A stretch of 37,913 bases of DNA from an uncultured Pseudomonadota bacterium (GTDB lineage: Bacteria > Pseudomonadota > Gammaproteobacteria > Enterobacterales > Succinivibrionaceae): contig OMYE01000008.1 in the NCBI GenBank assembly GCA_900315145.1, positions 1-37,913 on the forward strand, written 5' to 3'. The notes below the pieces were generated by a model. It was not told the DNA's origin and ran no database searches. It worked only from the letters and a program-made list of their open reading frames with translations. Each line of letters opens with the position of its first letter. Position 1 is the first letter of the stretch. Positions 21,889-23,247 of this stretch are shown here, in pieces. The position numbers and the translations under genes were made by a program.

Positions 21889-23247
21889 ATGGCGAATGAA
21901 GAAGCACAAAAGTCAAACGATACTGGAATATCCGAATATATCAATCATCATTTGAAATTTTTACAGGTAGATCTAACTGATTTTAAGGTCCTTAACAGTA
22001 AAAAAGTTACCAGTGTTAATGAGTATAACGTTTGCCTAGCAAAAGATACAGTAGATAATTGCTTGAAGACAAATAATGCAACAGATTGCTACTTGTCTGA
22101 TTTAGGGCAAAAGACATGTGTTCCTTATGAATCAAAAGAAAGCAGTTCCCAGTTAGTTAATTTTAATATTATAAATCTAGATTCAGCAGTAATATCCACT
22201 TCTTTAGGTTTCCTTTGTTTATTGCTATTGTTTATTGCTACTCGTGCTATTAAAAAAACAGCAATAGATTCTGTTCCTAGTAAATTTCTCACTTTTATTG
22301 AGATGATCGTAGAATTTGTAAATAACACTGTAAAAGATATATTTCAAATTGAAAACAAGTGGATAGCTCCATTGTCTATTACTGTGTTTTTGTGGGTTTT
22401 CTCCATGAATTTGCTGGATTTGATTCCGGTGGATCTTATTCCTGATATTTGTAAGAGTATGGGAATACCATATGTCAGGTTAGTTCCTTCTGCGGATGTA
22501 AATATAACTATGGCTATGTCTGTTTCCATTTTTATATTGATATTTGTTTATACATTCAAATACAAGGGGGTAAAAGGTTTTGTTAAAGACTATGCTTTGC
22601 ATCCGTTTAACTCCTGGATTTTTGCTCCGGTAAATATTTTCCTTGAAGGTGTATCTTTGCTGGCCAAGCCGGTTTCATTAGGATTACGACTTTTTGGTAA
22701 TATGTATGCAGGTGAAACAATATTCATTTTGCTTACTATCTTCTTTTCTTTTGCACCTTCATCCGACTCTCTATCAATGCTGATTGCATTCAATACTGTG
22801 ATCGCTTGTACTGCATTTCTGATTGGATATAAAGCCCCGGTAGGCATTAGTAAAACAATAGTTAAGCTTACATCTTTCCTGATATTGGGATTATCTGTAA
22901 TTGAATGTCTGCTAGAATACAATGACAGTTCGTTGTTTTCATCTGAAAACTTGAATTATTTATATATGACCACTATGGGGGCTAGTTTGCCGTTGCTTGT
23001 TGCTGCTTTATTAAGTTATAAGACAAACAAAGGTATTTTCTATTCCTTGATTTCTGTTGTCGCAGTGGTATTTACAATGGGATTAGGGTACATATTAGGC
23101 AATGAATTGCTATTGGGTGCGATTATTGGAGTTATGCTTAATCTTGTGTGGGCTTTGTTTCACATTTTGATAATATTTCTCCAGGCATTTATATTCATGG
23201 TTTTGACAATTGTATATCTGGCTTCAGCAAGTACAGCTGAAGAGTAG
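21889..23247 (+). CDS. atpB: ATP synthase Fo subunit a with two large insertions
   Basis: Subunit a forms the proton half-channels against the c-ring. It is 452 residues against about 271 in E. coli. Conserved parts are clear: DYIxHHL-like start ([15 protein letters not shown]), [47 protein letters not shown] with essential R267 (E. coli R210), and [16 protein letters not shown] with H425 and Q432 (E. coli H245, Q252). Arg to Gln spans 165 residues instead of 42. The insert (about 292-414) contains four predicted TM helices (295-313, 323-343, 357-376, 383-404) with Lys-rich loops on the expected cytoplasmic side. A second insert (about 36-90) holds Cys49, Cys58, Cys67 and Cys77. The frame is open throughout, so this is not an assembly of fragments. 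Confidence 0.95.

Follow-up and report, generated by a model that had tools for sequence, protein, structure and literature searches.

The window, i.e., the whole stretch of 37,913 nucleotides that was analyzed, carries an atp operon placed behind mnmG, rsmG, parA and parB (names recognized from sequence). The gene for subunit a of the F1Fo ATP synthase, atpB, is followed by open reading frames (23263-29143) that encode, in this order, subunits c, b, delta, alpha, gamma, beta and epsilon; the copies of the c gene were identified by Pfam and the other atp genes were recognized from sequence. The positions of the features discussed here are collected in Table 1.

The AtpB protein of the window matched the Pfam family PF00119 with 162.5 bits (cut-off 33.9) in two stretches, which correspond to positions 22207-22818 and 23065-23220 of the genome and leave most of the insert uncovered; it also matched the NCBIfam equivalog for the F0F1 subunit A (NF004477) with 302.1 bits (cut-off 280). 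Of the features by which an F-type subunit a is recognized, the Arg on helix 5 (H5), the Gln on helix 6 (H6) and the Glu/His pair of the half-channel are all present. A short H5-H6 hairpin is absent; this is our own observation and corresponds to no curated criterion for PF00119, and we take the long hairpin as variation, not as grounds to exclude AtpB from the family. Residues R267, N271, E276, H425 and Q432 are invariant in four Ruminobacter species, as are 28 of the 29 residues of H5 and 34 of the 36 residues of H6, in agreement with an earlier note on this DNA, which had described the core motifs on both sides of the insert as intact. Overall, the AtpB core is that of an ordinary family member and the added module is what is new.

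The N-terminal extension of AtpB contains four cysteines (C49, C58, C67 and C77; window 22033-22119, residues 49-77) that are invariant in Ruminobacter. Among 30 fetched AtpB proteins, 28 have at least 4 cysteines within residues 31-110, the others having two (L032) and one (L031); this region is possibly periplasmic and disulfide-bonded.

Table 1. Positions in the window of atpB, of the parts of its product and of the neighboring genes for subunits c and b
Feature	Position	Strand	Basis
atpB, F1Fo ATP synthase subunit a	21889..23247	+	single open frame, 452 aa, insert in frame
H5, residues 256-284 (R267, N271, E276), intact core before insert	22654..22740	+	alignment to chain 5t4o_K
Insert, residues 289-416	22753..23136	+	alignment to 5t4o_K; 4/4 Ruminobacter, 0/52 other family genomes
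Predicted membrane span T1, residues 294-312, periplasm to cytoplasm	22768..22824	+	hydropathy and flanking charge, 4 orthologues
Predicted cytoplasmic loop 1 with K315, K322, K326 (reaches first T2 residues)	22825..22866	+	
Predicted membrane span T2, residues 324-342, cytoplasm to periplasm	22858..22914	+	hydropathy and flanking charge
Predicted periplasmic loop between T2 and T3	22915..22956	+	hydropathy and flanking charge
Predicted membrane span T3, residues 357-375, periplasm to cytoplasm	22957..23013	+	hydropathy and flanking charge
Predicted cytoplasmic loop 2 with K378, K381	23014..23034	+	hydropathy and flanking charge
Predicted membrane span T4, residues 383-401, cytoplasm to periplasm	23035..23091	+	hydropathy and flanking charge
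H6, residues 417-452 (H425, Q432), intact core after insert	23137..23244	+	
atpE copy 1 (subunit c, 75 aa)	23263..23490	+	PF00137
atpE copy 2 (subunit c, 75 aa, 97% identical protein), tandem	23512..23739	+	PF00137
atpF (subunit b)	23778..24248	+	recognized from sequence; E. coli Gly9 position = Val

The insertion between H5 and H6 of AtpB

Residues R267 and Q432, which correspond to R210 and Q252 in E. coli, show a spacing of 165 residues within one 452-aa frame, as the earlier note had claimed; the insertion that it had placed at 22756-23131 corresponds to residues 290-414. The best PDB match of the window AtpB was E. coli subunit a (5t4o; E = 1.5e-87), the sequence of which is identical to that of 6oqr, an entry named as E. 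coli in a passage of PMC8849298. In a profile alignment to chain 5t4o_K, the aligned part breaks off after A226 and continues from W235, i.e., the insert replaces residues 227-234 of the E. coli protein, which form the tip of the H5-H6 hairpin.

Four hydrophobic spans (centers at residues 303, 333, 366 and 392) lie between H5 and H6, as had been proposed for the window, and four spans were also seen by hydropathy in the three orthologues. The third span has a mean Kyte-Doolittle value of 1.55 in the window as compared to 2.3-2.5 in the three orthologues, in which the second span is the weaker one (1.6-1.9). The lysines and the acidic loop that had been named in the insert are present in the translation, and K322 and K381 are invariant in the four Ruminobacter species. 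When Lys and Arg residues were counted in each predicted loop together with the five residues that flank it at both ends, the four orthologues showed 3, 3, 3 and 3 in cytoplasmic loop 1 and 2, 3, 4 and 4 in cytoplasmic loop 2; the middle periplasmic loop showed 0, 0, 1 and 1, and the linkers to H5 and H6 showed none. All four Ruminobacter orthologues retain the four hydrophobic spans along with a charge pattern that is positive on the inside, and this alternation of charge, which the earlier note had read as agreeing with the positive-inside rule, recurs beyond chance. These data support an in-frame, topology-preserving H5-H6 insertion with four predicted membrane spans.

The inserts of the other three Ruminobacter species share 26-32% identity with that of the window; in a slightly longer segment (from AGETIF to FHIL) identity was 33-38%, and in the part of the protein before this segment it was 69-71%. 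Using span limits that we set ourselves, 8 of the 74 residues in the four spans were invariant as compared to 62 of the 65 residues in the flanking H5 and H6. For the closest pair of species (L005 and L006), which is the only pair with synonymous change not near saturation, dN/dS was 0.235 for the insert, 0.029 for the core and 0.099 for the N-terminal region. The G+C content of the insert was slightly greater than that of the core in all four orthologues (0.365 as compared to 0.323 in the window). The insert is under purifying selection and is constrained for topology and hydrophobicity, not for particular residues.

Distribution of the insert and length of the hairpin

Ruminobacter belongs to the Succinivibrionaceae (Gammaproteobacteria), and a search of the genus found the insert in all four genomes, i.e., the window's genome, the isolate R. 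amylophilus DSM 1361 (the type strain) and the MAGs RGIG8895 and RUG10948. Whole AtpB was matched by 54 of 59 genomes searched (the window's included); the alignment ran from end to end in 4 of the 54, all Ruminobacter, and in the other 50 it fell into two pieces that omitted most of the insert. When 56 genomes of the family were searched with a profile made from the insert only, the 4 that matched were all Ruminobacter, and there was no match in the other 52, which comprise 27 genomes with an atpB lacking the insert, 4 with no atpB match and 21 without an atpB check. Among 398 genomes drawn from the phylum, the same profile found the window's genome and one match at chance level (G688; E = 0.009 per genome). 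Finally, PF00119 matched 273 of 276 genomes of the class, 20 of them twice; the two matches were in two separate places in each of 19 of these genomes, and only the window's genome showed one frame split by an insert, in a survey that lists part of its places and would miss an insert within a single unlisted match. The earlier note had counted an absence of the insert from close relatives among the findings that would refute its claim; relatives outside of the genus indeed lack the insert, which dates it to Ruminobacter and does not refute it.

The spacing between the Arg on H5 and the Gln on H6 was 163, 163, 163 and 165 residues in the four Ruminobacter genomes. Among 26 relatives from the family or order outside of Ruminobacter, it was 42-45 in 23, 51 in two and 73 in one. 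The intermediate spacings (51, 51 and 73) belong to the sister genera L007, L008 and L009, and the four genera with long hairpins form one clade in a tree of the AtpB core (support 100/99), near which the tool used warns of long branches meeting. In these sequences, the hairpin seems to have been lengthened within this clade, with the insert as the most extreme case, and the sister genera with intermediate hairpins may show evolutionary steps. As compared to the sister genera with a spacing of 51, the gain in length is 112-114 residues, instead of the approx. 123 that the earlier note had given relative to E. coli.

Across the class, the spacing was 41-60 in all 80 genomes of a sample that was hand-picked from the best-scoring rows, mostly one per family, and that leans to ordinary proteins. 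Within this sample (L068-L147), spacings cluster at 41-42, 46-48 and 52-60 and tend to be associated with the residue at position 9 of subunit b. In one class genome, an atpB that matches strongly (G293:C18:10095-10712) contains three TGA codons in frame, and an uninterrupted copy lies elsewhere in the assembly; the copy with TGA codons would be either a pseudogene or contaminating DNA from an organism in which TGA codes for an amino acid.

Other genes of the lineage and the source of the insert

As changed packing of the hairpin tip should show in subunit b, we examined the position of E. coli b Gly9 in relation to hairpin length. This position was Gly in all 23 family or order relatives with a spacing of 42-45 and Val, Leu or Ile in all 7 relatives with a spacing of at least 51, a difference that represents largely one clade within the family. 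Among the 80 class genomes, Gly was found in 45 of 55 with a spacing of 48 or less, and 20 of the 25 that have a spacing of at least 52 carried another residue; the exceptions were 10 of 55 short hairpins without Gly and 5 of 25 long hairpins with Gly. The residue was read in all 110 rows, over which the association was significant with kinship ignored (P = 1e-12, Fisher test) and with the 51-residue threshold set after the family data had been viewed. A kinship-aware test used the only three independent pairs on well-supported branches, of which on average 2.4 were for the association and 0.1 against it, and the corresponding sign test was not significant (median P = 0.25), as significance cannot be reached with three pairs. 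These comparisons of sequences are supportive, and not proof, of co-variation between subunit b and hairpin length.

The search for subunit c matched 37 of 41 genomes. Three of the four Ruminobacter genomes have two tandem, near-identical atpE copies, and the fourth, a MAG, has one garbled copy, which is perhaps a collapsed repeat; none of the other 33 matching genomes has two intact copies, and one of them (G008) has a single broken gene. The two copies are identical at 200, 213 and 219 of 228 bases within genomes as compared to 172-197 between species, and they look homogenized, a pattern as expected under gene conversion.

AtpI (also UncI) is a small hydrophobic protein that is usually encoded just upstream of atpB. 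In the other three Ruminobacter species, parB and atpB are separated by a small hydrophobic gene of 140-142 codons, which is similar in length to the insert; we call it atpI-like by position and size only, and Pfam leaves the two proteins that were scanned unnamed. A search of the window's genome gave no counterpart (the best match, at another place, had E = 0.97), and a stretch of 556 bases without a long frame (window 21333-21888) stands in the position of the gene. Using our own filter, a gene of atpI size was found upstream of atpB in 22 of 30 loci.

No match to cytochrome bd subunit II (CydB; PF02322) was obtained in the four Ruminobacter genomes (G000-G003) or in the other genera with long hairpins (G008, G009 and G011). 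Overall, CydB was unmatched in 17 of 41 genomes, and a link of the insert to oxygen use was rejected, as the genomes without a CydB match include some with short hairpins (e.g. G013, G016 and G023).

No source protein for the insert was found in Pfam, NCBIfam or PDB, in which matches were weak; the best match of a PDB profile search with the insert had E = 0.092. An origin from AtpI was rejected, as hhalign of the insert against 22 atpI-position proteins (chosen by position and size) gave a score of 10.4 and 30 shuffles gave a mean of 12.1 and a maximum of 18.2. An internal duplication was also rejected, both for the insert against the AtpB core (hhalign score of 17.8; maximum of 30 shuffles, 20.7) and for the two halves of the insert compared to each other (hhalign probability of 0.19). 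For cytochrome bd subunit II, Pfam scores reached at most 20.3 bits as compared to a cut-off of 35.6, and this origin was also set aside. Weak Pfam matches to this family were found for 3 of the 4 inserts (best E = 4.1e-4, in one orthologue) and for the window's insert there was none; when the inserts of the three orthologues (not the window's) were shuffled with residue classes preserved, one of the 9 shuffled sequences gave a stronger match than this, to another family (E = 1.5e-4). Comparison of the insert with CydB by hhalign gave a probability of 2% over 37 columns and a score of 21.7 (maximum of 60 shuffles, 20.6), using a CydB alignment for which only 9 of 28 fetched loci passed the filter. 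As the family was picked as the best of many, we treat the similarity to CydB as noise and not as disproved.

Possible roles of the insert and known ATP synthases

Published structures bear on the site of the insert. In Bacillus PS3, passages of PMC6377231 describe one surface of b as packing on helices 5 and 6 of a, with b Tyr13 (E. coli b Gly9) adjoining a Gly188 (E. coli a Leu229), and in E. coli, according to an excerpt of PMC7251095, residues Ile225-Gln234 of a together with three lipid densities bridge to a fourth c subunit. An insert that takes the place of E. coli 227-234 would leave the hairpin next to the helix of b, at the rim of the c-ring on the periplasmic side. The possible contacts listed in the earlier note (lipid, the c-ring edge and stalk b among them) are narrowed by these structures along with the co-variation in subunit b.

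We tentatively favor the explanation that the insert is a lineage-specific extension of the stator at the a/b/c junction, which would stabilize a contact with the rotor or the stalk. Two membrane hairpins (four helices), specific to the genus, would have been added in the H5-H6 turn, and as their helix number is even, the helices with R267 and Q432 would keep their orientation. The module would sit in the membrane next to the membrane helix of b and the periplasmic edge of the c-ring, where it would take over or widen the contact that is made in E. coli by the short tip and a few bound lipids, so that a stator-rotor or stator-stalk contact would be stabilized and lipid partly replaced. The data show the insert, its conservation, where it lies in the sequence and a corresponding difference in subunit b, from which we infer the membrane bundle, its placement and its stabilizing role. 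The fast drift of residues may be due to their mainly facing lipid or a co-evolving partner; however, a contact role predicts more invariant residues in the insert than the 8 of 74 seen in the spans. That the helices, at the site of E. coli 225-234, both extend the rotor-stator contact and re-seat b, with the change in b and the doubled c genes as matching changes, seems unlikely.

A possible, although doubtful, alternative is that the insert is a tolerated ornament, i.e., that a hydrophobic segment was inserted into, or grew from, a permissive tip at the membrane edge and has little function beyond folding (neutral complexity). This would fit the fast drift and the few invariant residues in the four spans, the graded hairpins (51, 73 and 163-165) within one clade, and the range of hairpin lengths (41-60) already present across the 80 class genomes. 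On the other hand, the insert is kept in all four species, and only four species are known, its charge topology is conserved in the four orthologues, and purifying selection acts on it, with a dN/dS of 0.235 from the one unsaturated pair.

It is rather improbable that the helices are directed outward and serve to link ATP synthases with one another or with a different membrane complex, in the way of the small subunits that have been added in mitochondria. The high drift would suit a co-evolving, lineage-specific partner, and the site touches b, which in mitochondria is anchored with the help of subunit f between helices 5 and 6 of a, according to a passage of PMC6377231; however, we identified no partner and found no oligomer data for the group.

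We consider it very improbable that the module regulates proton access by shaping or gating the periplasmic half-channel in the pump of an anaerobe. The two helices connected by the insert, H5 and H6, have the route of protons to the c-ring between them (PMC6377231, in excerpt), and pumping driven by ATP may be of greater importance in Ruminobacter and the other three genera with long hairpins, as CydB was found in none of them. Conversely, the channel residues R267, N271, E276, H425 and Q432 are unchanged, and the genomes that lack CydB include some with short hairpins. It is scarcely credible that a small membrane protein, such as AtpI, was captured and now serves as an assembly factor fused within subunit a: an atpI-sized gene is lacking in the window species and present in the other three, but these three of the four species keep both this gene and the insert, Pfam names neither scanned protein as AtpI, and the insert has no detectable similarity to the atpI-position proteins, their hhalign score falling below the mean of the shuffles. 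The chance that the insert is an artefact (a misassembly, or the chimera or frameshift considered in the earlier note) is negligible, as the window assembly is fragmented (246 contigs) but the same insert is found in an isolate genome and two further MAGs and no in-frame stop is present.

If the preferred explanation of a stator extension holds, four helices grown into the hairpin between the catalytic helices, with an isolate available, represent a natural test of how changeable the stator is; the module also bears on the role of the lipid bridge at the rotor-stator edge and on the co-adaptation of a and b. The earlier note had considered the module undescribed, and among the matches listed in searches of open-access text we found no description of added helices in a bacterial subunit a or of the ATP synthase of Ruminobacter or the Succinivibrionaceae.

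The membrane core of F-type subunit a is much the same from bacteria to mitochondria, and the additions in eukaryotes are separate subunits; mitochondrial accessory subunits other than subunit f also contribute extra membrane helices around a and b. The Ruminobacter protein shares its core helices and catalytic residues with subunit a of the E. coli F1Fo enzyme (PF00119; 5t4o), in which the H5-H6 tip has 8 residues (227-234), as compared to approx. 130 residues with four hydrophobic spans here. In the passages of the papers cited below, the lineage-specific changes described for bacterial subunit a are small. Acinetobacter, like Ruminobacter, has a lineage-specific insertion, which is thought to reach the membrane edge; this is a 12-residue extension between H4 and H5, accompanied by a longer N terminus, and thus lies elsewhere than H5-H6 and is without added membrane helices (PMC8849298, in excerpt). 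Subunit a of Pseudomonas aeruginosa is described with a single-residue insertion (PMC12796488, in excerpt). In Bacillus PS3, a larger periplasmic loop occupies the place next to b that an accessory subunit takes in mitochondria and does its work, but this loop lies between H3 and H4, whereas the predicted helical module of Ruminobacter lies between H5 and H6 (PMC6377231, in excerpt). The mitochondrial accessory subunits themselves (e.g. subunit f, described in the same excerpt of PMC6377231) likewise place extra membrane helices beside a and b; these are, however, separate eukaryotic polypeptides, whereas the Ruminobacter helices would be built into subunit a.
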